A DNA stretch of 64,000 bases. Source: Tricholoma matsutake (Eukaryota; Basidiomycota; Agaricomycetes; Agaricales; Tricholomataceae). The stretch lies in NCBI GenBank assembly GCA_026075535.2, contig AP026544.2:11718001-11782000 (forward strand). Direction: 5' to 3'. The notes under the pieces are model-generated. The model searched no databases. It saw nothing but the letters and a program-made list of their open reading frames with translations, and was not told where the DNA came from. Of this stretch, positions 2,191-62,014 are shown one piece after another; position 1 is the first letter of the stretch; every line of letters starts with the position of its first letter. Position numbers and translations under genes: made by a program.

Positions 2191-3294
2191 ATGACTGCTG
2201 AATACAGCCCACCTTCTATCTCCCTCATTAAATTATTGGTTCAATACTCCAGAGAGAAGCTGGACAAGCTCAAATCCAACTACAAAGAATGGTGCAAGGA
2301 AATCACCATCACCCTCTCCTTGAATAGCCTCTGTGAATATGTGACTGGTGATATCCCTTCGCCCACATCCATTGAAACATGTGCCCTCACTAACTGGAAA
2401 GCTAATTCCCACCTTGCATATGCATTCATTGCTTCTAGCATATCTCCCTCTGAACATCCTTTCAGAGACATCACAAAGGGTCCTGATGTCAACTGGAAAA
2501 ATCTCCAAGACTGTCATCAGAAAGAGGGTCCCATCCATCAGGTACAGCTGTTACAACAGGCAGTGCATGATGGACATCCCACTCCCCAAAACTGCTGAGA
2601 AGATCTGCACCCTCATTGAACATGCTTTTGCCATGGGCGACATCAAAGCCGATCTCCTTTGTTGCATCACACTCCTTAATTCCCTCAGTGATAATTTCCC
2701 TCATGCACACTCCATTATTTCCTGTGACATTGCAGCATCCACTACCATCTCTCTATATGGATCAAGGGACATCTGTTTGTTCCTGGAGAATGAACAGTCC
2801 CTACATGAGAATGATCAATGCAGTAACTCACATTCTCATGTCACACTCACTGCTTGTGCCAAACCTACCAAGTTGTCAAATACACCTACTTGCAGGAACC
2901 TCGCTTGTAAGAGAACTGGACACACAATGGAGTACTGTATCAAGGCAGGAGGGTGCATGGGCAGGAAAAACCATCAGGGAATCCAAAGCTGCCCATAAGT
3001 TAGTGCTTGAAAAGAAGTCACTGGGATTTAATACTTCCAAAATCCCAGTCATGGACGTCAATGGGTGGGCATTCATGGTAATGATTGACCCCAAAACTAA
3101 TCCAACACCTACTTTGCACTCAGAGTTTGCTGGTTTAGCTTGCAATCCCATTTGCACCACCACTATTGACAAAGTCAAATATGATGGGTGGATTGTTATC
3201 AAGGAGGAGGTGACTGTCACTGTTGACTGGAATCAGTACACCTCTGCACCTGTTGCAGATGCATTCACTGTCGAACTGCTGAGTCAGACTGGTT
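2191..3294 (+). pseudogene. Copia A gag (UBN2-like, CCHC knuckle), frameshifted
   Basis: The frame starting ATG at 2191 (MTAEYSPP) encodes a Copia-type gag region of the UBN2 class, with motifs such as KLKSNYKEWC and ENW-like NWKNLQDCHQKEG. A frameshift near 2560 moves the reading to the frame containing PLPKTAEKICTLIEHAFAMG. A zinc knuckle of the form C-x4-C-x4-H-x4-C (CRNLACKRTGHTMEYC) lies near 2892-2939, followed by the GGxMAGKTI-type stretch in a third frame. Gag would coat the genomic RNA in cytoplasmic particles. A second copy of this gag, also broken, lies at 11170-11650. The gene cannot make a full protein now. Confidence 0.85.
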
Positions 3295-3300
3295 GATCTC

Positions 3301-4440
3301 AACTTTCCCTGGACAACTACCCATTCATTGTGGATTCTGGGGTGACTGTACATATATCTCCCAACAAAGGGAACTTCATCACCCTTCATCCAACACAACC
3401 TCATTCTGTTAGGGGCATGGGGGGGACTTCAATTGCTGCCATCGGCATTGGTGAGATCAAACTCAGAATAACTTGGGGCACATCAATCATATTATGTAAC
3501 AAGCTCTACATCCCAGATTTGGCAGTCCACCTTATTTCAGTGGGCATGTTGGCTGACGACTCAAATGTGGTAACACATTTTGATCACTTGGGGTGCTGGA
3601 TTACTGATAAGTCCACTGGTGCTTTCATTACACATGGATCATGGTTGTCCAAGAAACTTTACTCACTCAATCTCCACACTGTTGCCACTGACCATGCTCT
3701 TACCATACACAAACCCCCTACCTTGGAGACATGGTATCATTGTCTTGGCCATGCAAATTACCAATCCCTCTGGGACATGGCCAAGAAGAGAACACTCACA
3801 GGTGTGCCTGTTATACACACCTTAAAACCACCCAAATGCAGATCTTGTGTCCTCAGAAAACAGATGAAAATGCCTGTCCCAAAGAAATGCGAGGAGGGAC
3901 CTGGTCACAGAGCGACTAGGAAGCTGGAGAAGGTGTGGGTAGATTTTTTGGGGCCATGCTGTCCCATTTCATACTGGGAGTTCATATATAATGGATATTG
4001 TTGATGGTTACACATCCTTTCTTTGGTCAATACCCCTCCACAACAAAGATGATTCACTCCTGAATTAAAAGCTTGGGAACTTGTACAAGAAACTGAGACC
4101 AGACTCAAGGTTGGGACTTATATCACTGACAACAGAGAGCAGAAGTCACACAAAATTAAAGCTTGGCTGAAGACATGAGGAACTGATCATTGTTTCACTG
4201 CTCCACACACCTCCACTCATATTGGCCATGTCAAACACATGCATCACACATTAATGGCTAAAGCCTGTACAATGCAGATATATACCTGCTTATCTGTGGG
4301 ACAAATTCTATCTAACAGCATCTCATCTGCACACCAAAACTACTACCTGTTCTCTGCAGGGATATACTCCTTGGGAACTGTGGTTTGGATGAAAGCCTAA
4401 CTACTCATACCTGCAAGAGATCTGGTGTTGCGCCTTTGTA
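3301..4440 (+). pseudogene. Copia A protease and integrase region, degraded
   Basis: The frame from about 3330 to 4004 starts with an aspartic protease motif read as DSGVTVHIS. The usual residue after DSG is Ala; GCG to GTG, a CpG change, would explain the Val. A GAG-pre-integrase zinc module follows, with the H and C pairs visible around 3733-3850 (WYHCLGHA and CRSC). The integrase core continues through a stop at about 4002 (DIVDGYTSFLW, then ITDNREQ near 4123). Several stops and shifts break the rest. The reading joins the linker and reverse transcriptase region at 4441. Confidence 0.8.
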
Positions 4441-5455
4441 CTTATGCCCAAAAAGGACAACCCTAAATTTTTTGAATGCTCTGTTGAATGTGTACTGGTA
4501 GGATATGATCCGAAATCCAAATCTTATTGCTGTTATAATCATGCAATGCATAAAATCCACAGCTCTTACCATGTTTGGTTCCTCGAGAGTCATGATGGGC
4601 ACTCACCACCCGCACCTACCATCTTTGAGGATGATGCAAGTACCAACCAATCTAGTAATGGGAAATCTAATCACAGTCCTTTAATCCTAGATGACAATAA
4701 TGATGACGATGAGCAGTTCATCAACCATGGTTCAAACAATGAGGATACCAGTGACTTAGATGAACAACACATACTGCTGCCTCAACCTATACCCTGCCAT
4801 TCCTCACGAGTCATTACCCCCACAGAAAAGAACCCAAATGGTGGACCAGTCAGCACTAGAATCACAACAGCTGTTCAAGAATCCCAGGAGAGTGCGACCC
4901 AAGTCAAGGAGGCATGACAGGAACATAGGGCAGCAATGGTGGCTGCTTGAACAGCCGAGCCAGATCACATACAAGATTCAATGATCAATCATGATCGTGA
5001 CATCATTGCAGATCTATGTCAATCGGTGATCAGGTGCATCAATTCCACACTTTGATCTTGAAATGGCAGATTTCAATCCCAAATCCCTTCAATCCAAGGA
5101 CAACCCAAGAACATGGGAGGAGGCCAAGAACTCCATTGATGCAGAATGATGGACAGGAAGCCTAAAAGATATGGGCATCCATAAGCTCATTCCCCAAGAT
5201 GATGTACCACATGGGAAACACATCCAAAAGGGGAAATCAGTTTTCCACATCAAGCAGGATGAGACCAGAAAAGCAGTAAGATGGAAGGTGTGCCTGGTCT
5301 TCAAGGGTTTTGAACAGATCTACGGCAAGGACTATATGAAGACTACCTCACCAACTCCACACATGGAATCATGGAGAATACTCTTACACTTAGCAGCCTC
5401 TCTTGGCTGGAATGCACAACAGATAGATGTGAAGACCGCATTCCTCTATGGACTA

Positions 5456-9409: not shown

Positions 9410-9660
9410 AGAGTGCACTGTAATTTATGCTCCCCCCACCTATTCTGATTGGACTCTCTGGAATCCAGTTATTCCAACCAGATTCCACTGGAGTCTGATT
9501 ATTCCAACCAGATTCCAGTTATTCCGACCAGATTCCAGTTATTCCAGACTCCAAGTTATGCATGTTTAACTTACAGTATACAACAGTGGAAAGTCAAGTC
9601 AAGTCAAACTTCGAGTCCTGAAGTTCCTCAGTTGCCTACAAAATAAGTTTGTGCAGAGCA

Positions 9661-9738
9661 AGGATTGAACTCAAGGCCTCATGATAAAGTAATCACAAGA
9701 CAAACCAAACAAGTGTGCTCAACCAGTTGAGCCACAGG
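9661..9738 (-). ncRNA. tRNA-like module of Z1-a, left, outward-facing (type I)
   Basis: Read on the minus strand it has an A-box-like TGGCTCAACTGG and, about 55 bases later, a B-box-like GAGTTCAATCC, in the order and spacing of an RNA polymerase III internal promoter. Close copies lie at 18445-18521 and 56528-56604. It is not a functional tRNA gene: the acceptor stem is not convincing. Confidence 0.65.
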
Positions 9739-10059
9739 AGAATTATTAGCTAGCTAATATAAGGTTTATTTGTGATACTCAAACTCATAACTTCATTTTT
9801 TTGAAGTAGATAATTAAGATCAAATTTTTTTAAGTTTAAGGACATCCCTCATGGGGGATGATTTGATTATATATATACATAAAACTAACCCCTCGCATTC
9901 AGCATGAGGGGGGAGGGGGAGGTGTAATAATATTAAATAATTAAAACTACATCATGTGTCATGCAATATGCATGTATGCATATTCCGTTAATGGCTGCAG
10001 TTAACTATGCACCTTGGTTGGGTAATAAAGGTATTAAATGTATGTAGAGAAATAAATAC

Positions 10060-10125
10060 TTGGTAGCTCAGTGGTTAAGCATGCTGTTATGTGTGCAGAC
10101 CCAAGGTTGAGTGTTCAATTCTTGT
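10060..10125 (+). ncRNA. tRNA-like module of Z1-a, right, outward-facing (type III)
   Basis: The A box reads TGGTAGCTCAGTGG and the B box GTTCAATTCTTG, separated by a possible anticodon arm (GCATGCTGTTATGTGTGC). Transcription from it would run out through the short repeats to the right tip of the element. It differs in sequence from the left module, so it is not a simple inverted duplicate. Confidence 0.65.
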
Positions 10126-10382
10126 GGTATGTTGAACTTTTATTTGGGAAAGCATGTGCATTCCGGTTATTCCAGTTATTCTGGTTAGTCCAGTCAGATT
10201 CTGGGGATTCCAGGTGTAAATTTGATGCTTATTCCGACTGGAATTGTGCTCATAGGCAGAACTTCATACAAAAAAATCCAACCAGAATAGGTGGGGGAGT
10301 GACTCAGAGTGCATGACAACCATGTTATATATAAATATAGCAGCCAGAAAAACTACAGGAATTCAATGGTCAAACAACAGTT

Positions 10383-17236: not shown

Positions 17237-17552
17237 GAGCTCTTTACACTGCCCCATGTATTCCTGGAGGAATCCTGGTCTTTCTGGTAGGACTACCAGG
17301 ATTCCTCCAGGATTCCTGGTAGTCCCTGCTTCAGCCATTGTCCACCAAATGCTTTATTCCTGGCAGTTTCTCTTCCAGTAGGATTCCTGGTGGATTCCTG
17401 GTATAATCCTGGTAAATTGGGCTCTTCCTGGTACCATTCCAGGAATTCCCCAGGACTTGGACTATGAGGAATCCAGGAGGATGGACCAGGAATCCAGTAG
17501 GATTGAACCAGGAGTCCTTAATACTAAGTAATAAAATAAATGACACAAGGCA

Positions 17553-17617
17553 GAATTGAACCCTAGGCATTAGACAACAACATTTCAGCACAGCCAATAT
17601 AACCACTACACCACATA
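17553..17617 (-). ncRNA. tRNA-like module of Z1-b, left, outward-facing (type II)
   Basis: On the minus strand the A box is TGTGGTGTAGTGGTTAT and the B box GGGTTCAATTCTGCC. It is related to the modules at 51071-51145 and 60294-60363. It would transcribe leftward through the short repeats to the left tip. Confidence 0.62.
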
Positions 17618-18444
17618 GACTTAAAAAGTGTGTCCACTAACTGCTCTAGGTACCATTGGGGCGGCTGTGCATGACAAAGCACACAGCTGCATCATCAACA
17701 CTGCCAGCTCATCAACCATCACCACCATGCTGCTGTCCTCTCCATTCTACCACCACCACCACTGCATAGACACCTGCCGCCACCATTCCCACACCCACTC
17801 CACCATCACCACCACCTTCAAACGAGCTGACTGGACAGAGCGCAGGCCCAAACGACGCAACTTGCTGCATTGTTTGGGCCCTACATAAGTTTTTTTTTTC
17901 ATTTGCTTTTTGTTTTTATAAACTAACCAATCTGTTTCTTTAGTTTTCTAGGTTATAATCTACGAACCGTTGGGATGGGGATGATGGGGAGATGGGGACA
18001 GGGACAGGGATGGGGATGAGGATGGGGAGCAGGACCCATGCACCCACACCATGATGAGACACCACCAGGCCACCCCCTCCCCCGCATTTTGCATGGGGAG
18101 GGTTTTTTTTTCATTTTTTTTCTTTCATATTAATGCCCTCGCCCTCACCTGCATTTTACAATGGCGAGGGGATTTTCTTTATTTATTAATAATTGTCGCC
18201 CTCCCCTCACGTTCGAGCGAGGGGATGTAGTTTTATGTGTAAATATTTTTAGGGCTCTCCCTTGCACGAGGTGCATGGGAGGGCTTTTTTTATGTAGTTA
18301 ATTGTATTGTATCCCTCTCGTCTAACGTGAGGGATGTAGTTGATTAAAATTATTTGATCTTAATAGTGACTTTGAGAGAGATTATATGCTTGAGTTTGAG
18401 TTTGAGTCATAAATAAACTTTATATGGATAACAAATAATTCTCC

Positions 18445-18521
18445 TGTGGCTCAACTGGTTGAGCACACTTGTCTGGTTTGTCATGTGATTCCTCATCATG
18501 AGGTCTTGAGTTCAATTCCTG
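18445..18521 (+). ncRNA. tRNA-like module of Z1-b, right, outward-facing (type I)
   Basis: The A box is TGGCTCAACTGG (about 18447) and the B box GAGTTCAATTCC (about 18508). It matches the type I modules of Z1-a and Z1-d. It would transcribe rightward through the repeat array that now abuts the Gypsy1 LTR. Confidence 0.65.
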
Positions 18522-18764
18522 CTTTGCACAAATCTGTTTTGTGGGCATGTTGTGAAATTTCTGAAGTTGAGGCACTTGAACTCATAAGATATCAAATTGA
18601 CTTTCCATTATGGTTGGATGTTTGGTAACAGACCAGGAACCCTGGTAAGTCCCACTGGATTCCTGGTGAGTCCTGGTGAGTTCTACTGAATTCCTGGAGG
18701 ATTCCTGGTGAGTCCTGGTGAGTCCTGGTGAGTCCTACTGGATTCCTGGAGGATTCCTGGTCTT

Positions 18765-34678: not shown

Positions 34679-36683
34679 ATGACAAGTGAAACCCAATGGC
34701 AAGGACAATTCCTTCCTCCACATCAATCCCCTCCAATGCCACCTGAGCCATCAGAGAACCCAGGACCCAGACGGTACTGGCAGGGGAGCCGATATACGGT
34801 CAAAGAGCAGAAGATCATCGAGCCTTATAAAGATGGATTCCGATCTCAGGAAACAAAAGCTGCCCAATTGCAAATATGCAAAACTGACATTCTCCCCACC
34901 ATATTTAATTACTGGGCATCAATTGAGATGACCCCAATAGATCCAGAGGAGAGTCGCATGCATGCCAAGGTGGGGTATCATCCCATTCAATGTTGTATTA
35001 TTGATCACATTGCCAGGAACTAACAAACTGGCTTTCGAACAACTGGCGAATGATGAAAGGCTCCTCAAGGAAGTCAAACAACTTCAAAGTGAAGTGATCA
35101 GAAGTGATCTGGAGCTTACACCAGGACCAAGTTTGGAAAGAGATCAGAGATATGTTAGGTGTTCAGGATGCATCCACAAGTACACCTGGATGGTTCCAGA
35201 ACTGACTGCCAGCCATCAAGAGGGTTTTTGAAAGCATGACTGCAGAGGAAAAGGCAGTGCTTGAGGCCGAGCAGGAGAAAATGGAGGGGGAAGGTTATCC
35301 AGAGAAAATGAAGCAAATGTATGTTAACCCATTGCTGTTGCTGTTGCTGCTGCCAATGATGTTATTGATGTTTCACAGTCGAGCAGAGAAGAACCTGGTT
35401 AAGCATGTGGAGGAGACTGCACAACAACAGTGGCTAGAAATGGGGGTGCTTTCTGTGACATTCACGGCCTACACTGCACCTGATGGTTTGATGGTTGTTG
35501 ATGCGTGAGTGAAAATCTTCTGCTGCTGTTGCCACTGCCACTGCCATTGCCAATCCCACTCCTGATCACAGTCACAAAAATGTTTCATCATTGATGGCCA
35601 CCCCTGCACGATCCTTCATAGACACATATAATAATGAGATCACAGAGCTCAAGCGCCACTTCATGGGCTATATCAAGGCTTTACATGCATCAGACATTGC
35701 TTCAAGGTCAACAGCGCATGGTGACTCAATGCAAATCTGACTTGAGATGACTAGCGATGGGCTCCCCATCCTACCCACACCATGGAAAGGCTCACTGTAC
35801 AAGAAAAAAGAGCTGGAGGAATGGTTTAAGTTGTATGTTGGGCAGCATCACAGTATGATCACTTCCTTTTCAATGAGTTGTTACTTATCTGCATGCAGAA
35901 CTAGCGAAAAATGGTCGTACTTTCCATGTCCCATTCACAGCAATTGCTGAGCACACATTGACATGCATCAATCCAGAATATCTCCCAGCCAGGTTCAAAT
36001 GGACAGACCCACAGAACATGCAAAAGAGTGTCATAGAAGACTTCTTCAACCACATTCTGCAGTGGCAAATGGCACAGGGCCCTGAGAGGGCATTCAGGTT
36101 CAAAAGAATCAAGCTACACAATGGTAGTGTCTCTCCTGAGCAATATCCTAATGATTTGAATAGCCCTACACCTTCTTGACAGATGCGCAAACACACTGGC
36201 CGATGTAATGCAGATGCCACTGCCGTGCCTGATGTAGACTCCCCCACTGCTGCTACCACTGCTGTGCCCGGTGCAGACAACTCAGTGGCCAGTGCTGACT
36301 CAGCCGCTCCTGTGCCTGTGCCCATGCCTGACCCTGAGGGCCAATCCCAAGGTTTAGCTGCATCTTCTCCCAACCCACATTCACAATCAAGAGCCATAAA
36401 AGCTGCAAAAGGCAAATCCAAGCCAAAGAAACCTGGCCAAAGGTCGATGGCAGAACAGGCACACAACTTGAACACAAGTGCAATTCTGTTGAATGATGTA
36501 CAAGTCCATCAAACAACAATGGACATACTCTGTAAAGCTGGCAGCGCTCAGCCACAGCCAATTAATGGTCCAGGTGATGGTGAACTGCAGTATCTTATAC
36601 CTCGAGACACATACATGAGGTACATGGGACCCATGTCAGGCAACAATGTGAATGACCCCCCTATTAATCTGTCCCTGTTCTGA
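34679..36683 (+). pseudogene. KDZ-element companion gene, multi-exon, function unknown
   Basis: The first exon frame begins MTSETQWQGQFLPPHQ and includes RYTVKEQKIIEPYKDGFRSQ. Further open stretches are joined by apparent introns: LAFEQLANDERLLKEVKQL (35031), EEKAVLEAEQEKMEGEGYPEKM (35245), WLEMGVLSVTFTAYT (35430), GWLPI-like LPILPTPWKGSLYKKKELEEWF (35760), and TLTCINPEYLPARFKWTDPQNMQ (35955). A stop at 36177 precedes a long Ala/Pro-rich end (36183-36683). It is arranged head-to-head with the KDZ transposase. Introns near 35325-35370 and 35507-35580 are rich in GCTGTTGCTG and CCACTGCC repeats. I know of no assigned function. Confidence 0.55.
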
Positions 36684-50752: not shown

Positions 50753-51070
50753 TAGTGTTTAAAGGGATGTCTTTACTCTAAGCCATGTATTCCATGTGTA
50801 TTCCATGTGGAATGGGTGGAATCCATGCAGAATCTGAGTTAGTCTGCATGGAATAGTCACCAAGCAAATTATTGATTTTGCTTGTGGAACACAAGGTCAG
50901 ATTCTGTGTGGAATCCATGCTCTTTGCTCGGAATAAGTGGATGCCGAGGATCCTAGTCTGAGCAAGTGATCATCAGCATGGACTTGGACTGTTCCTGGGT
51001 CTCTGAGAGTCCATACAGACTCACACAGACTGTCCATGTTCTATTTTAGGCAGTAGCAAAATAGGACTCC

Positions 51071-51145
51071 AAGGGGACTCGAACCCCAGACCAAATGATA
51101 ACAATAGGAACATGAGAACATCTACTTAACCACTACACCACACAG
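51071..51145 (-). ncRNA. tRNA-like module of Z1-c, left, outward-facing (type II)
   Basis: On the minus strand the A box is TGTGGTGTAGTGGTTAAG and the B box GGGGTTCGAGTCCCC, a perfect B-box core with a four-pair T-stem. It is the best-preserved module in the window. It resembles the modules at 17553-17617 and 60294-60363. Confidence 0.68.
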
Positions 51146-51258
51146 TCTTTTATTACATTGGGATACTATTCCTACATGACACCTGGCCACTTGACCAGGG
51201 TTATGGGTTAGTCTATTATTAGACAGCCCATCAAACACAGCCCACGTCCATTGGCAAT

Positions 51259-53401
51259 GGTCTCCATCAACAATGCTCACCACCCCCCGCCACACCACCC
51301 CATATATGCCCTCTCACTCACTATCAACACCCATGCCAATGACCTGAACATCAAACTCGAAGACCAGGAGTGGCTGTCAACTGGCCTCTCCCTCATCAAA
51401 GTTGACCACTGCCACATGCAAATGTGCCACATCATCAGTCGACAATGGAGCTGCAAGAGCCAAGAAAGCAAAAAAAGGCTCATCCAAAGACAAGGAGGAG
51501 GAAAGCAAGGGGAAGAAGGGGAAAAAAGCAAAGAAACCATGTGTATTGCCCCTGATTCACTGCCGTTGCCCTCACATTCCTTTTCCAGCCATAAAACTGC
51601 CACTACCCGGGCAATGGAGGACACTGCTGCAACTCAGCCATCCTGTTTGACCAAGTAAGTCAAATTCTTTCATTTTCTATCATTTTATGTCTTTATTCTA
51701 CACATTACAGGACTGAGATAGCCCTCGAGACCAGCGGCATCATGGTCACTCCCCAAAAATGCACTAACACTGCAGGAGCCACCGTCCCACTGCTCCCAAC
51801 CCAAGACACCTCGAGGTGCCGCTGTACCACCCAAGAAACCACCTCCGCAGCCCTGAAACATGGCTTGAACAAGTCATCAGGAACAGAGGAATCCACCACA
51901 GACAACAAGGGCAACACCAGCTCGGGAACCCAGTCGAGCAGCAGCAACAGGACTGGTAGCGGCCATGGCAGCAATAGTAGTGAGGATGAGAGTGATGAGA
52001 ACAACAAGGCTGAGGAGAACGATGAGGAGAATGACACCAAGGACAATGGTGACAAAGACAAGCACCGCAAATGGGGAAAGGGCCACAAACAGGACGAGGG
52101 CTGTGGTAAGTCACCGCTGTCTTGGCCTGACAGTATGTGCTCACCCCTCTCATGTTTTGGTAGGCAATGAGGGCCATAAACACAAACAAGGTGAGTCCCC
52201 CCCCCTCAGCCCTGCCTATTGGCATCCTCCAAACCTCCCCCCTTTTTTTGTAGGTAATGATGGGCATCCTACCACCTCCACCAACCCTGGCACCACCCCT
52301 CTCATTGGCGACAGCGGGTCCAAATTCTCTGGAGGCAACTACTTAGGTGACAACAACAACAAAGTAGGCAACAATGGGTGTGCGTCCAACACTGCCGCCA
52401 TCTCTGTAGGTGACAACCTAGGCAACAATGGGTGTGGGTCCAACACTGCCCCCATCACTGTCGGTGACAATGGGCATGGGTCCAACACTGCCACCATCTC
52501 TGTAGGTGACGACAGGCATGGGTCTGACAACACCACTGTCTTGTCTAACATCGCCACTGTCTTGTCCGACAACACCACCATCTTGTCTAACATTGCCACC
52601 GTCTTGTCTGACAACACTGCTGTCTCGTCTAACATCACCACTGTCTTGTCCAACAACACCACCATCTTGTCTAACATTGCCACTGTCTCATCCAACAATG
52701 CCGTGGTCTCGTCCGACAAAGCTGCTGTCTCATCTGACAAAGCCACCATCTCTGTTTGCAAAGGTAAATTTATTTCAAAATTATGTAGTGGTTAGATAAA
52801 ATTCATGACTCAAAAATTTAAACAGATGTTGTGATGGATGATGAATGTGTAAAGAATAGTGGGCCTATGTCAGGAGAAGGTGAGTCACAAACTATGACTG
52901 AAATCTATGCCTGTATAATATAATTCTCAGATGTTCATATGACAAGTCCACTGCAAAGTCCACCACAATTACAAGGAGCATCTTGTACAATGGGAGGGAT
53001 TTTACGAAATTGGGCTGTTGGAAATGTCTATAATTTAGCTGATGAGATGGAGATTGATGGAGGATTTGAGGATAGTCAAATATGCCCAGTGGGTAAAGTC
53101 CATGTCTACACTACTCATTGCAACCTGAGCAACTCGAAGCCATACCTCTTGCTCAAGCATCCAGTAACAAAGAGTCTCACTCCTGTTCTCAAAAAACTGG
53201 GGATTCAATATTCGCCTGTTAAAAGTAAGTGTTACATAATTTCTAAATATGATCAACTGTTAGAGCTAAACCAGTGAGTATTTGTATATGAGGACAATAT
53301 GTGGGCAGTGAAAGGTCAGTATGATCTGCTGTTAAAGAGGATGATGAGCTTGATTGGCCAAGTTTCAATGAGCAGTTTACACTCAAACTCCTCATTGTAA
53401 G
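51259..53401 (+). pseudogene. Z1-c gene 1, multi-exon, function unknown
   Basis: It starts MVSINNAHHPPPHHPIYALSL and contains THANDLNIKLEDQEWLSTGLSLIK. The frame then shifts into a Lys-rich stretch (AKKAKKGSSKDKEEESKGK). Introns at 51655-51710, 52106-52163 and 52191-52253 have GT..AG borders. A 240-bp minisatellite (about 52510-52750) encodes TVLSNIATVLSDN-like repeats. The last exons read ASCTMGGILRNWAVGNVYNLADEMEIDGG, VHVYTTHCNLSNSKPYLLLKHPV and, after a TGA that fits CGA, VFVYEDNMWAVKGQYD, ending at 53401. It seems to be a family that travels with CxC5/CxC6 genes. No function can be named. Confidence 0.55.
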
Positions 53402-53460
53402 TCAATGATTTTTACACTCTTCACATGTTCTCAAAAACAAGCTAGACATCAGACCTTGCA

Positions 53461-54074
53461 CAGGTGGGCAGTGTTCATTCATCTGCTGGTGATCCACCAG
53501 AATCTTTGACTCTGAGATCTGCTTCAATGCCTGGCCCCCCTCCATATTCTGCTCCCTCCACTGCCTCATTTAAAGATCAACTTATATCTCTTCTCTGCAT
53601 TCCACCTCATTTGACTGGCACTGCCGATGTTTCACTCCAAATTGCATACCATAAATACAAGGCATTTCTCATCACAATTCAGACGTATAATGAGATGACA
53701 ACTGCAGGTACTTGGACAGTCAAACAACCAACCAGAACTGATATCATCGCTTTGTTTGTCTCAAAATCATTTTTTCATTCACATTACAAGCACTATTTTT
53801 TGAAGGTTGCAGAGTATGAGGAAATGGTTGCATGGTTGGATGAAAGGGAGGATTGCCTGAGTGATCTAGAAGTGTGGGGAGTTGGAAAGACAATTTACAC
53901 CTTTACAGATTTGGCTGTGTGGTTGGAGAATGGAGGAAGTTTGGAGGTGAAGGAGGACTGCAAATATGAGGATGGAAATGGGAAAAAAGAGGAAAAAGGA
54001 AAGGGGAAAGAGAAAGAGAAAGAGAAAGAGAAAGAGAAAGAGAAAGAGAAAGAGAAAGAGAAAGAGAAAGAGAA

Positions 54075-54117
<43 letters not shown>

Positions 54118-54208
54118 GAAAGAAAAGGGAAAAGGGAAAGAAAAGGGAAAAGAAAAGGACAAGGGTAAGGACAAGGGTAAGGATAAGAAAGCTGGAAAAT
54201 CCACATAA
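53461..54208 (+). CDS. Z1-c gene 2: protein with long Lys-Glu repeat tail, function unknown
   Basis: An acceptor-like CACAG at 53458-53462 precedes an open frame of about 245 codons. The first half has PPPYSAPSTASFKDQLISLL, YHKYKAFLITIQTYNEM, SKSFFHSHYKHYFLKVAEYEEMVAWLDERED and DLEVWGVGKTIYTFTDLAVWL. The second half is a KEKEKE run encoded by a GAGAAA microsatellite, ending KAGKST. The upstream exon was not found. It is undamaged over this length. The charged tail may form a single long helix. I do not recognise a functional domain. Confidence 0.5.
54003..54125 (+). repeat. (GAGAAA)n microsatellite within coding sequence
   Basis: About twenty near-perfect hexamers encode Lys-Glu dipeptides; a phase change near 54092 adds Arg (ERERER) without breaking the frame. 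Length variation here would change the protein in steps of two residues. Confidence 0.9.
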
Positions 54209-56527
54209 GCAGGTTATCTGCAGACTATATGAGTGTGTTTGTCACATTGTATTTCTAGTACTGGATTATTTGTATGGATGTTCACTCTCCTCCATGCTGT
54301 ATTTTCAAGATTGTCAAAATCATTCCCAGATGACACTGTGTTTGGCAATGCTTCCAGTCACACATGCCTCCTCCACTACATCTCCATTCCCCAATATTCC
54401 ATTCAAGACATTCTCACAATTCATCATGCAAAACTTCAGTTCCAAAATAACTTTATCAACTGTCCTCATGGTGTTGTTCTCCTTGACAGAAAATCCCAAT
54501 CTGTTGAATTTGCATGCATGGCAGCAATATATCAAGTGCCAGGGGGAAAATCAAACTCAGGCATCAGGATGGATAAAAGGTCTGGCCCGGGCCATAAAAA
54601 AACAGGCCAAACAGCCTTTGAAGATGAAAGATGTGAATAAAGAGATGAGTGAGGAGGAGGAGGAAACTGCATTGGGTTTAAAACTGGATTCTCTTGCAAA
54701 GCTTTTGGATCTGCATCCATATGATGGAGATGGGAGATTTCAAGGCAGATTACAGCCAATCTCTGATGAACTTATCCAACCTGCACATGTCATTTGTCCT
54801 GATGCAATGGAGTGTCAAACTATGGAGTGCAAGTCAGGATCACTGCTTCAAAACACACCAACATGAGATGTGCCACATGTTACACTTATCCACAACAATG
54901 TGGTATATGGGAATGTTCCAGTTTTGACAGGCCAATGTTCCATTTGCAAAACCAAATATATGGCAGATCATGAGCGAGCAGTTGAAATTCAGGTGGAAAA
55001 GAGATTCAGTTGGTTATATCTGAATTCAGCAAAATACCTCAAAATTGGACAAGCTTTATGGGTTGATCAGTTATTCTCCTGTGGTGTTTTGAATGAGATA
55101 TATGACTTTCATGCATCTGCAGCAGCATATACAGCATATTGGAATCACACCTTTGGAAAAAATCAGCTGGTTTGTGTGCAACAGGTTACTCATTGTCAAG
55201 TTTGGCAAGCATTTGTTCAGGAATCAATTTATTCAATTGCTGCTTTATCAGAGGTGGATCTAGTACTCCAGGATGGGCTAGCCATTGATGAGGTCACAAA
55301 GGAAGCCTTTGCTATTCTTGGAGCCAATGGTGTCATTAGGGTGGCTGGAGGGCATACATGCTCAGAATGCACACATGAATACAAATTGATGGCCAATGTC
55401 ATTCCTGGTTCAGATCCATTAGCAACTGCTGGATTCAATGACAGAGTTCCGCAAGCTCCTGTTGCTGTTGGTAATATCCAACATGCTCAAACACCACCAG
55501 ATAACAGAGGTTCTTCAGTTGGGGATGATGATATGCAAGTTGACAAAGGAGTTGTACAATTAGTGGTTCTTGATGGCATAGTAACAGGCCCTTCAGTATG
55601 CTGCAAAGATTCTTGCTCAACTAATTTCTAACTGATGTGATTATCACAGTGCTGTGCTTATGGAGATTGCACTGATGCACTAGCAAATGCTCGTGGTGGT
55701 GTATTTTGTGCTTTGCATGAGCATGAGCATGGTGCAGAATGCTGTGTTGTGGGATGTTCAGATTCCAAGGTTGCTGGAACACAGGCATGTGTGCAACACC
55801 AAGCATATTGGACCAGATATAAAGGCAGTTCTTCTCACCAAAGGGTATCAGGGTTTTGAAGAATGTTGCCGAGGCCTGGAGAAAGTTTACCATGGCAGGC
55901 AGCTGCAGAACCAAATGCACAATGCCTTGATGAGGAAATGCCAGAAGTACAGCGATCAAATTACTTCACACCCCACCAGTTTTATTGTGTGGAAACTATC
56001 TGTGCTTCATGTGGAGTGGTTATTGCATGGACAAAGTTTGCAAATTCAGATTCACCATCCAATATTTTGCATTTCTTGGAAACAGTATACTATACTGAGG
56101 AATCCAGGCCAGCCTATATTTGCATTGACAAAGCTTGTCTGGTGCTCCATCACAGTATTGCCAGTAATGGCTGGGATATATGGAGAAAAACCAGCTGATT
56201 GATGGTTGACTCTTACCATTACATCAATCATCGGCTAACAGATTTCTTGTGCCAAAAGTGGTGCAATCCAGCACCAATGCAGTACTTTACAGTCCCCCAC
56301 CTGTCCTAGTGGACTCCGACCAGACTGACCGGAGTCCACTGGAGTCCAAGTGGAGTCCAAGTGGAGTCCAATTGAACTACACTAAGTCATGTAGAGTTCA
56401 ATCCCCCATTGGAGTCCAACTGGAGTCCGAGTGCAACCAAATGATAAGTCAATTAGATATGAGCTCAAAGGACTTCAGACTTGGTGAATTTCATAAAGTA
56501 CCCGCAAAATAAATTTGTGTACTGCAA

Positions 56528-56604
56528 GAATTGAACTCAAGACCTCACCATAAGGAATCACATGACAAACCAAACAAGTGTGCTCAACCACTTGAGCCAC
56601 AGGA
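56528..56604 (-). ncRNA. tRNA-like module of Z1-d, left, outward-facing (type I)
   Basis: On the minus strand the A box is TGGCTCAAGTGGTTGAGC and the B box GAGTTCAATTCTTGC. It closely matches the type I modules of Z1-a and Z1-b. Confidence 0.65.
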
Positions 56605-57182
56605 GATTTATTGGGGATCAATATAAGGTTTATTTATGACTCAACTTTTCATATTCTTCGAGGAGGCATTTTTCAAACAATTAAGATCAACAAATTTTAA
56701 TTAACCACATCCCTCGTGTAGGACACGAGGGAGTGGGTATAATATAATAATAAACAAAAAAAAAACCCCCTCTCGCATCTTGCGAGAGGGAGGGCAGAGA
56801 TAAATTAAAAATAATAAAAACCCCTCGGCATGCAAAATGCGGGGGAGGGGGGGTTGGGGGATGTGGTCTGGGGTGGGTGTCATCGCCCACCCCTCCTCGC
56901 ACGTGTCCATCGCCGTAGCAAGCCACACCCATCATCCACCCTATGAGCAGTTGCTTGTAGGGCGTGGGGATGGGTGCCATGGTTGTCTTATCCCTGGTGT
57001 GCCCGCCATCCACCCGATGAGCAGCTGCTCATCGGCATGGGCTCTCACAACCCATCCACCCTGCGAGCAGAGGCTCACAGGCATGGGGTGGGTGTGTTGT
57101 CAGCTTTGGGGGGTGCTGGTAGGCATTGTCATTGTCGTCATTGTCGTTGTCGACTGCACACACTCACGATCCACCCTATGAG

Positions 57183-57640
57183 CAGGGGCTTGCAGGCGTG
57201 GGGTGGGTGTGTTGGCTCGTTTGCAGGTGGTGGTGTTGTTACTAGTAGATTATATCCTAGAAAACTAAAAAAATGAGTTAGTTAGTTGATAAAAACAAAA
57301 ACCAAGTGAAAAAAACTTACATAGGGCCCAAACGACGCGATCTGCATCGTTTGGGCCCGCGTTGGCTGGTTTGCAAGTGGTGGTGTCGTTACTAGTAGAT
57401 TATAACCTAGAAAACTAAAAAAATGCGTTAGTTAGTTTATAAAAACAAAAACCAAGTGAAAAAAACTTACATAAAGCCCAAACAATGCAGATCGCATCGT
57501 TTGGGCCCGTGTTGGCTCGTTTGTGAGTGGTGGCGTCGTTGCCAGTAGATTATAACCTAGAAAGCTAAAAAAAATAGGTTGGTTAGTTTATAAAAACAAA
57601 AAGCAAGCGAAAAAAGAACTTATGTAGGGCCCATCCATTG
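57183..57640. repeat. three tandem units of about 150 bp with hairpin and intron-like part
   Basis: Each unit contains GTAGATTATAACCTAGAAA, a T/A-rich stretch and a GGGCCCAAACGA..TCGTTTGGGCCC hairpin (first one 57324-57358). On the minus strand the stretch between hairpins begins GTAAGTTTTTTTCAC and ends TTTTCTAG, like a short intron, so the array looks like repeated exon-intron units. Z1-b has one such unit at about 17849-17980. Confidence 0.65.
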
Positions 57641-57836
57641 GGCTCGTTTGCGGGTGGTGGTGATGGTGGATTGGGCATGGAAGCAGTAACGATGGGTGTC
57701 CACGCAGTGGTGGTGGTAGAGAGAGGAGGGAGGGAGGCGGCCGTCGATGGTGGTGGTGGTGATGGTGAGTGAAGAGCTGGCACATTTGATGACACAGCTA
57801 TATGCTTTGTCATACACAGCCGCACACAGTACCTAG

Positions 57837-60260
57837 CACTGGGTGCAGGGCACAATACCCCTGATGGGGTATTATGTAAGTATCTTGGAAGTATTCCTAA
57901 TACTGTCAAGATACTAGCCCAGAAGTATGTTGCAAGTATGCTGATTGTTGATTACCATACCTCCACATTAGTAACTTGTACATATTGTAACTGTATTCTG
58001 AATGTCTTGGCTGAAAGATAATACAATATTTCCTCCCTACTATCACAATAATATCAAGATACTTCTAATGGAGTATTGAAGTGAAAGATCAAAATATTTT
58101 TCAAGTACTGAGAAGGCAGTAACTTGGTGGTATTGAGGTAATTTCTTCAGTACTACCAAGATACTATCTACAATACTATCAAGGTGATATCACAATACTC
58201 TGCTTGGGATATATTAGCAATGTGATGGAAAAGATCTAGAAAACCTCTGTGTCAGTATGCTTGAAATATCATGGAAGTACACAAACAAAAAGAGTAGTCA
58301 TACACCCCATACCTTCACCATACTAAAGCCAGGGAATATTGGAAGTATTGAAGTGTTGTTTATTCAATACTGTCAAACTACTCTATGGGAAGTATATAAG
58401 AAGAAATTTGATAAATTGGGAAATTATTATTAGCAGATGTCTGCACATGCAGGTCTGATGTTGCAAGTATCCACTTCCATGTCTGAGCACCTACACACTG
58501 GCTGGACAGTAAGATACTTCTGAGAAGGAGTATTCTGGAAATAGTCCTAATACTGCCACCATACTCACCAAGGGATATTTTGCCAGTATGCATACCAATC
58601 TAGAATACTACTTCAGTACCTTCAGCACTATCAAAATATAGTACAATACTGTCAAAATACTTCTAGTGAAGTATGTTGACAATATTAGGAATACTGTCAG
58701 GATACTTTCACAGTACCTCTCAGGCAGTATTGTGCCTTGCACCCAGTGATGTACCTGAGTAAGTACTTGGATGTACAACATGGATGTGCAAGTGGTACTT
58801 GAGTACATACCTGGACACACAAGTAGATATCAAGTAGGTACTTGGATATACAAGTAAGGACTCAAAACAGTAGGTACTGAAATAAGTACCAGTCCGGTAT
58901 GTACTTGAATAAGTCCCGGTATGTACTTGAATAAGTACTGGTAAGTACCAGTAAGTACTTGAATAAGTACTGGTAAGTACTGGTAAGTACCGGTATGTAC
59001 TTGAATATGTACCGGCATGTACTTGCTGGTATGTACTTGAATAAGTACCAGTATGTACTTGAATAAGTCCCGGTATGTACTTGAATAAGTAACAGTACTT
59101 ACCGGTACTTATTCCAGTACATCCCGGTACTTACCAGTACTTATTCAAGTACATACCAGGACTTATTCAAGTACATACCGGGACTTATTCAAGTACATAC
59201 CGGACTGGTACTTATTTCAGTACCTACTGTTTTGAGTCCTTACTTGTATATCCAAGTACCTACTTGATATCTACTTGTGTGTCCAGGTATGTACTCAAGT
59301 ACCACTTGCACATCCATGTTGTACATCCAAGTACTTACTCAGGTACATCACTGGGTGCAAGGCACAATACTGCCTGAGAGGTACTGTGAAAGTATCCTGA
59401 CAGTATTCCTAATATTGTCAACATACTTCACTAGAAGTATTTTGACAGTATTGTACTATATTTTGATAGTGCTGAAGGTACTGAAGTAGTATTCTAGATT
59501 GGTATGCATACTGGCAAAATATCCCTTGGTGAGTATGGTGGCAGTATTAGGACTATTTCCAGAATACTCCTTCTCAGAAGTATCTTACTGTCCAGCCAGT
59601 GTGTAGGTGCTCAGACATGGAAGTGGATACTTGCAACATCAGACCTGCATGTGCAGACATCTGCTAATAATAATTTCCCAATTTATCAAATTTCTTCTTA
59701 TATACTTCCCATAGAGTAGTTTGACAGTATTGAATAAACAACACTTCAATACTTCCAATATTCCCTGGCTTTAGTATGGTGAAGGTATGGGGTGTATGAC
59801 TACTCTTTTTGTTTGTGTACTTCCATGATATTTCAAGCATACTGACACAGAGGTTTTCTAGATCTTTTCCATCACATTGCTAATATATCCCAAGCAGAGT
59901 ATTGTGATATCACCTTGATAGTATTGTAGATAGTATCTTGGTAGTACTGAAGAAATTACCTCAATACCACCAAGTTACTGCCTTCTCAGTACTTGAAAAA
60001 TATTTTGATCTTTCACTTCAATACTCCATTAGAAGTATCTTGATATTATTGTGATAGTAGGGAGGAAATATTGTATTATCTTTCAGCCAAGACATTCAGA
60101 ATACAGTTACAATATGTACAAGTTACTAATGTGGAGGTATGGTAATCAACAATCAGCATACTTGCAACATACTTCTGGGCTAGTATCTTGACAGTATTAG
60201 GAATACTTCCAAGATACTTACATAATACCCCATCAGGGGTATTGTGCCCTGCACCCAGTG
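57837..60260. mobile_element. 2.4-kb near-perfect palindrome with CACTG tips and TAG duplication
   Basis: Two arms of 1100 bp (57837-58936 and 59161-60260) are reverse complements with no length difference around an axis at 59048.5. A 224-bp centre consists of repeats around GTACTTGAATAAGTACYGGTA. Both outer tips read CACTGGGTGCAGGGC. The flanks TAG (57834-57836 and 60261-60263) form a 3-bp target duplication. CACTG-type tips with a 3-bp duplication are typical of CACTA/EnSpm elements, so this is best read as a foldback element of that kind. Mirror-image open frames in the arms are not genes. Confidence 0.85.
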
Positions 60261-60293
60261 TAGCACAAGTAGATGATACCTTAAACAAGTTAC

Positions 60294-60363
60294 TGTGGTG
60301 TAATGGTTATATTGTGTGTTATGGTTACATAAGCAACCGACAGGGATCTGGGTTCGATTCCTT
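60294..60363 (+). ncRNA. tRNA-like module of Z1-d, right, outward-facing (type II)
   Basis: The A box is TGTGGTGTAATGGTTAT and the B box GGGTTCGATTCC, a perfect B-box core. It lies between the palindrome and the right-hand GGACTCCAAC repeats and would transcribe toward the right tip. Confidence 0.67.
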
Positions 60364-62014
60364 TTCTTACACACTTTTTGAGTGGAATCCGACTGGACTC
60401 CCAGTGGACTCCAACTGGACTCCAACCGGACTCCAACCAGAATCCAACTGGCATCCAATTGGACTCCAACCAGAATTCAACCGGACTCCAACCAGACTCC
60501 AACTGGACTGGGACTGGACTGGCAACTTTGCAGGCAGTTGGCTGGTGACCAGTCCCAGTGGACTCCAGTTGGACTCCGGTTGGACTCCGGTCAGTCCGAC
60601 AGGAAAGGTGGGGGAGTGTAAAGACCTCCACCAATGGATGGATCTGCACCAAATCTTGTTATCATGGAGTATGACAGAGAGGGGGTTCCTCACTATAAGT
60701 GTGCATTTAATACACAGGCTTTTGAGCAACTTAATGCCTGGCTTGGTGGTTTTGATTCAGTTTTGAGGAGAATGACGGTGGGGAATTTTAACTGGTTTTT
60801 TCATGCAATGTTATCTTACCATGCTTGGATGGTAATGGAAAAGCAGAGGTTGAGATGTGACAAGGAGAGCTCTGGTGATAGTAGTGACTCTGATAGTGAC
60901 TCCAATAGTGACTCTGATGATTAGTAATAGCTAACTTCCCCAGTAACATTCATGTACTTGTAGTAAACAAATATGATGACAATCTTCCATGCATCCTGGG
61001 CTGTGCCGATTCCACATGGAATGGCAAGGATTCATAATCCGAGTTTTTGGTCACAATCCGTGTGGACTCCACATGGAATTGCTTACAAATCCCCCTTTGG
61101 GGTACTCAATGTGCACAATCCAAGTAATTCTGTGCAGAATGAGCAGAGGCTGCATGGAGTACACAAGGACACATGGGTGAGTGTAAATTACAGTTTAAAG
61201 GTCCGGTCCTACAAACTGGAAAAAGACCAAAACCAAACTGAACTGAACTGAAGTCTGGTTCATCAAGTGGCTATTTATAGGACCAGTCTTTTGCAGTCCA
61301 GTTGCCAGTCTTTCACTTTGAAGAATATCATCAAACCAATGAAAACCGGTTCATATGTCACGTGAGCTATTTCCCCTGATTCCCACACATAATGCCTTCA
61401 GTTTCGCTCCCTGGATCATCAAAAACGGTTGAGAACTGAGAGAGATATGACCAAATACATTTTGGATGAGTATCTTGTTGTGATTAAAATAACTTTGATT
61501 GTACTGCTTACACCTTGCATTACAAAAATGTTGGGTACAATTGGACACCATCCAAGACATAAAAATGACACACATAAACATCTGTACCATGTATCTTTGA
61601 TTAATTTAACATCCCTCACAAGCTGCAACTACATACTACAACTACAACTACAACCTACAAACTACAACATGTAATACAATGTACTTTTGTTCTGGTCATA
61701 TCTCAGTCAAATCTTGATGAAATCTCATAAAAGTTAGACCGGTCGCCGGGGAATTACGATATCCAACTGCTGGTGTAACTGTTAAATGGTCCGGATAATA
61801 GTTGCTGAGAAACATATGGGATATATTGGTACAACAAATTTTACAACAAAAAGTCGGTTTGGACTGGTTTTTATTGGTCCATGGACCAATATGGACTGGT
61901 CCTATGTGGTCCAGTTGCGGTCCATCAATATCTTGGTCAGTCCTGGACCGGTTGCGGTTGCAGTTGCCCCATTTAGACATCAAAAACCGGACTTAACCAG
62001 ACCTGTAAATGCTA

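Follow-up and report, generated by a model that had tools for sequence, protein, structure and literature searches.

Pol III promoters are understandable in mobile DNA whose transcript itself serves as template, SINEs and TRIMp3 elements being examples, and cut-and-paste transposons need no RNA copy for their movement. A and B boxes of tRNA origin are what the heads of SINEs have, and tRNA genes form boundaries in yeast. According to passages of PMC10886601, the TRIMp3 elements Helenus, Cassandra, and Ajax are short elements whose LTR contains a Pol III promoter, and the tRNA-derived promoter motifs of Helenus and TRIMp3 are conserved but the RNA structure is not; a term search of that paper returned no mention of DNA transposons. 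A tRNA-gene barrier is reported in PMC11830863. For the Kyakuja-Dileera-Zisupton (KDZ) transposons, part of PMC12730594 reports 8-bp target site duplications (TSDs) in Zisupton and in one Dileera lineage. Searches of open-licence PMC papers found none that describes Pol III modules in KDZ elements or in any other DNA transposon, which agrees with the remark in the original prediction that it knew of no family with such a layout.

Comparing these systems with the elements reported here, TRIMp3 is the nearest precedent, since tRNA-derived promoter motifs are conserved without RNA structure in both, as far as the passages of PMC10886601 go. However, TRIMp3 elements have LTRs and are copied through RNA, which they need, whereas the KDZ-associated elements here end in short inverted repeats, are flanked by 8-bp TSDs, are associated with a DDE protein, and do not need RNA. 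Likewise, tRNA-type SINEs have tRNA-derived A and B boxes in common with our elements, but here the boxes have a fixed place and orientation inside the ends of a DNA transposon. The chromatin boundaries formed by tRNA genes are similar in that Pol III units are possible barriers, and differ in that they involve host genes or constructs, whereas paired units lie in a transposon here and their barrier role is putative. The 8-bp TSD is as in Zisupton and the one Dileera lineage in the relevant part of PMC12730594, whereas the terms tRNA, subterminal, and Pol III were absent from that paper by term search and outward modules are present here.

Elements, modules, and transposase-like gene in the window

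Four elements lie in the window, the 64,000-nucleotide stretch of DNA that was analyzed: an F6 element at 9418–10305 (TSD AGAGTGCA), an F7 element at 17237–18764, whose right tip is lost, an F5 element at 50766–61193 (TSD TTTAAAGG), and an F1 element at 56280–60628 (TSD CACCAATG), which sits inside the F5 gene. As predicted, they share tips, and the three with both ends preserved, F6, F5, and F1, have perfect 8-bp duplications when read by eye from the flanks; the automatic TSD test, run with near-consensus tips, recovered F1 as the sole window element. The tip word TTTACACTCCCCCACC has five window matches at three or fewer mismatches versus 0.64 expected, and none of 100 shuffles reached five. 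Both F6 tips and the left F5 tip are too divergent to match at this threshold, and the match at 36233 falls outside all described elements.

The F5 element, a KDZ-associated DNA transposon, encodes a CxC5/CxC6 transposase-like protein. The first part of the gene occupies 54336–56279 on the + strand (Pfam; tblastn with residues 36–667 of the homolog P0001), and its C-terminal part, severed by the F1 insertion, lies at 60625–60864 on the + strand (tblastn, P0001 residues 664–743). The Pfam scores were 78.9 bits for CxC5 (cut-off 26.9) and 43.8 bits for CxC6 (cut-off 27.5), and a DDE RNase H-like (integrase-like) core was recognized in the protein. Foldseek gave no match to the PDB at an E value of 0.001, and the integrase core emerged on a second examination. 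The Pfam KDZ transposase domain matched neither the window frames nor six homologs at E ≤5. CxC5/CxC6 clusters are named after KDZ transposases, and together with the DDE-like core they provide the likeness to KDZ; terminal inverted repeats with an 8-bp TSD, a KDZ/Zisupton-type feature, are also present (15 elements by automatic pairing, the window elements by eye). The group consists of KDZ-associated cut-and-paste DNA transposons together with many non-coding relatives. Within F5, at 52365–52751, tandem repeats of 21, 42, 54, and 84 bp resemble a repetitive coding stretch.

All seven tRNA-like modules of the original prediction were recovered in the window, and all seven point outward. Type I modules, given here and below with their flanks, are located at the left end of F6 (9621–9746, − strand), the right end of F7 (18435–18559, + strand), and the left end of F1 (56487–56610, − strand). 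Each is paired with a module of a different type at the other end, as had been proposed for all three two-module elements: type III in F6 (10052–10162, + strand), type II-like in F7 (17512–17625, − strand), and type II in F1 (60284–60401, + strand), the last being followed by TTTT and TTTTT. F5 has a module at its left end only (type II-like, 51035–51152, − strand), and neither inspection nor the test for A box, B box, and T run found a recognizable one at its right end. ARAGORN and Rfam made no tRNA call on the window modules (E ≤1) or on the modules of five further loci (E ≤5). We rejected functional tRNA genes on account of these results and of acceptor and T stems that pair at chance level (3.12 of 7 pairs versus 3.27 in shuffled sequences and 2.96 of 5 versus 3.12, respectively, in the 25 representatives defined below).

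Subterminal repeats were located at the left end of F6 (9458–9559, TTATTCCAACCAGATTCCAG), the right end of F7 (18641–18761, TCCTGGTGAG), and the left and right ends of F1 (56331–56371, GGAGTCCAAGT, and 60383–60591, TGGACTCCAAC). The claim that each element uses one repeat word at both ends stood for F1, F3, F4, F5, and F7 as judged by 7-mer sharing, and did not clearly do so for F2 and F6, whose arrays are close to each other when the 7-mers common to left and right arrays are compared with those of other families. Elements conserved this closely by selection may also have exchanged ends by recombination. The family-specific repeats are probably transposase binding sites, and the simplest reading is that one transposase would bind both arrays, its specificity shifting by family.

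Further structures were seen in and near these elements. A foldback element at 57837–60260 within F1 has arms of 1112 nt with 100% complementarity; since it has TAG on both flanks and the homologous end L021_R lacks it, we read it as a recent insertion with a 3-bp TSD. The interiors of F1 (56700–57620) and F7 (17800–18400) contain series of GC-rich hairpins, identified by eye, such as CCCTCGTGTAGGACACGAGGG and GGGCCCAAACGA...TCGTTTGGGCCC. Two 167-bp tandem units at 1415–1852 overlap below-cut-off matches to microRNA models on both strands, which probably reflect merely inverted-repeat structure.

Copies and module orientation across the genome

The genome searched comprises 161,040,721 bp in 13 contigs. 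With at most one mismatch, TTTACACTCCCCCACC was found 1364 + 1380 times versus 20 + 17 times for the reversed word, and the exact tip TTTACASTCCCCC has 2529 copies, its reversed word 120. The tip variants GAGNNCTTTACACTCCCCCB and TTTACACTSMCCCATG occur 567 and 92 times, and their reversed words do not occur. The first 20 of 100 listed exact tips were examined with 9.8 kb taken around each. At 11 of these 20 loci, the tip selected is part of an element whose 8-bp TSD is exact at standard offsets; L026 joins them when the offset is relaxed, and the TSDs of L011 and L015 contain one mismatch. Automatic pairing yielded 15 tip pairs with a TSD, of which three come from additional elements in L016 and L027 and one from the window, and 12 of the 15 are 1.7–2.4 kb long. 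L025 was rejected as an autonomous element because its length is due to a Copia-type insertion. At L027 (3084–7111), an F3 element (3190–5338) lies within an F4 element near the F4 tip, both with exact 8-bp TSDs, so families insert into each other.

The random orientation that would have spoken against the original prediction did not appear among the genome-wide copies. Using a generic B box (GTTCRANYC) with the distance counted inside the exact tip, we found 925 outward and 7 inward boxes at 200–260 bp. A further 528 outward boxes are located at 261–320 bp, the comparison of outward with inward boxes covering the 200–260 bp range; as one tip may match in both ranges, the 1453 boxes in total cannot be read as an exact fraction of the 2529 tips.

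The modules were then considered at 88 ends, comprising 8 from the window, 34 from 17 paired elements, 40 with the two other tip variants (drawn from 92 and 100 listed places), and 6 single ends. A full test required both boxes as well as a T run no more than 26 nt away; 62 ends passed it outward and 2 inward, and a looser B box gave 66 outward, one of them probably by chance, and 2 inward; the families have a common ancestry, and copies are not independent in these orientation counts. Both inward passes are the opposite end's module in short elements. L027b_L and L027c_L have one module in common because the elements are nested. When the T run was not demanded, an A/B score of at least 14 was reached outward in 69 and inward in 21 of the 88 ends. 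Of these inward pairs, 17 fall in F1 ends, where repeats mimic the boxes, and we rejected them as modules, as they are words of the repeat array that score equally high and have no T run.

The 26 ends that failed the full test fall into four groups. Twelve have no module by eye (W50766_R, L037, L042, L043, L046, L047, L048, L049, L053, L010s, L023s, and L024s), eight have a damaged or doubtful one (L015_L, L018_L, L035, L055, L056, L064, L065, and L067), three lack the T run alone (L017_R, L040, and L044), and three have a B box below the cut-off (L011_L, L034, and L069). These module-free ends show that past mobility of an end did not require a module. Module capture as end definition, the alternative offered in the original prediction, is at most a candidate reading.

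The orientation bears on whether the modules could be separate SINEs that inserted near the tips by chance. Although tRNA-derived A and B boxes are typical of SINE heads, as stated in a passage of PMC10886601, this reading was already disfavored and is hardly credible given the excess of outward B boxes and the homologous flanks that type I modules retain on both sides across families. Moreover, among the 17 type I words in the part of contig C1 common to the lists of type I words and exact tips, 13 have an exact tip within 500 bp in front and none has one behind; the separate SINEs that would have spoken against the original prediction did not appear. In a scan for module homologs, 43 of 47 have a tip-like 12-mer (three or fewer mismatches) in front and 9 of 47 also have a three-mismatch match behind, numbers of limited weight as the loci were chosen by tips and the tip-like match of the module at 51035 is not its own element's tip.

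Promoter boxes, terminators, and their conservation

A and B boxes at tRNA-like spacing (consensus score at least 14) are present 150–450 bp from the tip in 67 of the 88 ends, and these 67 modules were reduced to 25 representatives at 90% likeness. A run of at least four T within 20 nt after the B box occurs in 23 of the 25 representatives, compared with 9.4% of random places in the same ends. Among the first 100 of the 925 genome places, which had been chosen by B box and tip alone and not by the T run, 98 have such a run within 26 nt; it starts after 14–17 nt in 82 and immediately in 16. In these 100 listed places, all 14 distinct post-B-box lineages have a T run at the kept spacing. In the 62 passing ends, the T run begins 74–425 bp (median ~260) before the outer end. 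We therefore rejected the suggestion of the original prediction that Pol III transcripts cover the element ends: terminators precede the repeats, and transcripts should not cover the tips.

The boxes could instead be internal transposase-binding sites that merely resemble Pol III promoters, and their rather fixed distance to the tip would suit such sites. This is very unlikely, however, as the two boxes are spaced much as in tRNA genes and a T run follows at the distance of a terminator, and as the subterminal words vary between families but the boxes do not.

In an alignment of type I modules and flanks from five families, conservation is 97% in the A box, 94% in the B box, and 90% in the T4 run, compared with 81% between the boxes, 74% after the B box, and 53–64% in the flanks. 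A second anchor, present in 23 ends, is a hairpin around CTTTGTCATACACAGC some 45–50 bp upstream of the A box; in 21 of these 23 ends, selected by the hairpin alone, a B-box-like word stands at the expected place. Eight representatives of the right modules anchored in this way have 82% conservation in the A box and 81% in the B box, figures that are raised because the boxes were located by consensus, as well as 34–43% between the boxes, 38% after the B box, 28% further out, and 70% in the hairpin. The right modules thus diverge more than the type I modules. Selection by boxes inflates box conservation in the 25 representatives and partly so in the hairpin-anchored right modules. As judged from these alignments, the A box, B box, and T run are conserved better than their neighbors between families, which suggests that the units have been kept by selection.

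Alternatively, the modules may be passive relics, in which two tRNA or SINE heads entered an ancestor by a single capture and the families inherited them with their orientation, now functionless. The type I modules are homologous across five families including their flanks, so that a single event accounts for much of the orientation, and many ends have lost or damaged modules. We nevertheless consider this explanation unlikely, because both boxes and the T run are kept better than the sequence between and around them and the T-run spacing is held in every post-B-box lineage. It is also conceivable that the RNA product matters, each unit making a short non-coding RNA for use by the element, for example, against silencing. 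The promoter and terminator look complete, and the type I inter-box stretch exceeds the flanks in conservation; yet the right modules are only 34–43% alike in this stretch, and the folding of four modules was no better than that of shuffles, which makes a role of the RNA quite improbable.

Candidate boundary role of the Pol III units

We judge it likely, on the sequence evidence, that the units are retained, working Pol III promoter units, and we lean toward Pol III units acting in cis in KDZ-associated ends as the best explanation of the whole. The sequences show the layout of such an end, which consists, from the outside inward, of a tip with a short inverted repeat, family-specific subterminal repeats, and a tRNA-derived Pol III-type unit, whose A box, B box, and T-run terminator read outward and stop before the repeats. 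TFIIIC, TFIIIB, and Pol III are predicted to bind these units, which would act in cis on the element. A protein-bound unit would be placed between the interior and each end, leaving the tips untranscribed.

As a cut-and-paste element needs no RNA, the conservation of outward units needs a different explanation, for instance access to chromatin or insulation. Most likely, the ends would be protected from nucleosomes and silencing in the way of a tRNA-gene boundary, and the units would block read-through into the transposase sites. We tentatively propose that the pairs of outward Pol III units are under selection and serve the element as inherent boundaries of the tRNA-gene kind, through which the ends that bind transposase stay accessible; this boundary or access function in itself, although possible, is the least certain step of the mechanism. 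If true, these elements would be the DNA-transposon counterpart of retroelements with Pol III promoters. Moreover, the outward units occupy well above a thousand ends and would scatter many candidate TFIIIC sites over the genome, of which more than 70% is repeats according to a section of PMC10627285.

A further tRNA-related repeat was observed at L029–L033 (contigs C1, C3, and C12), where a 74-nt tRNA-Ile(TAT), scored at 52–56 bits by Rfam, is contained in an LTR-like unit of the form TGTTGG...TTTAACA. At L030, two copies are located 296 bp apart. The unit resembles Helenus as portrayed in passages of PMC10886601. In Tricholoma bakamatsutake, 275 of 277 tRNA-Ile genes have the TAT anticodon, which the relevant part of PMC10627285 reports without explanation, and the LTR-like tRNA-Ile(TAT) unit might explain them.
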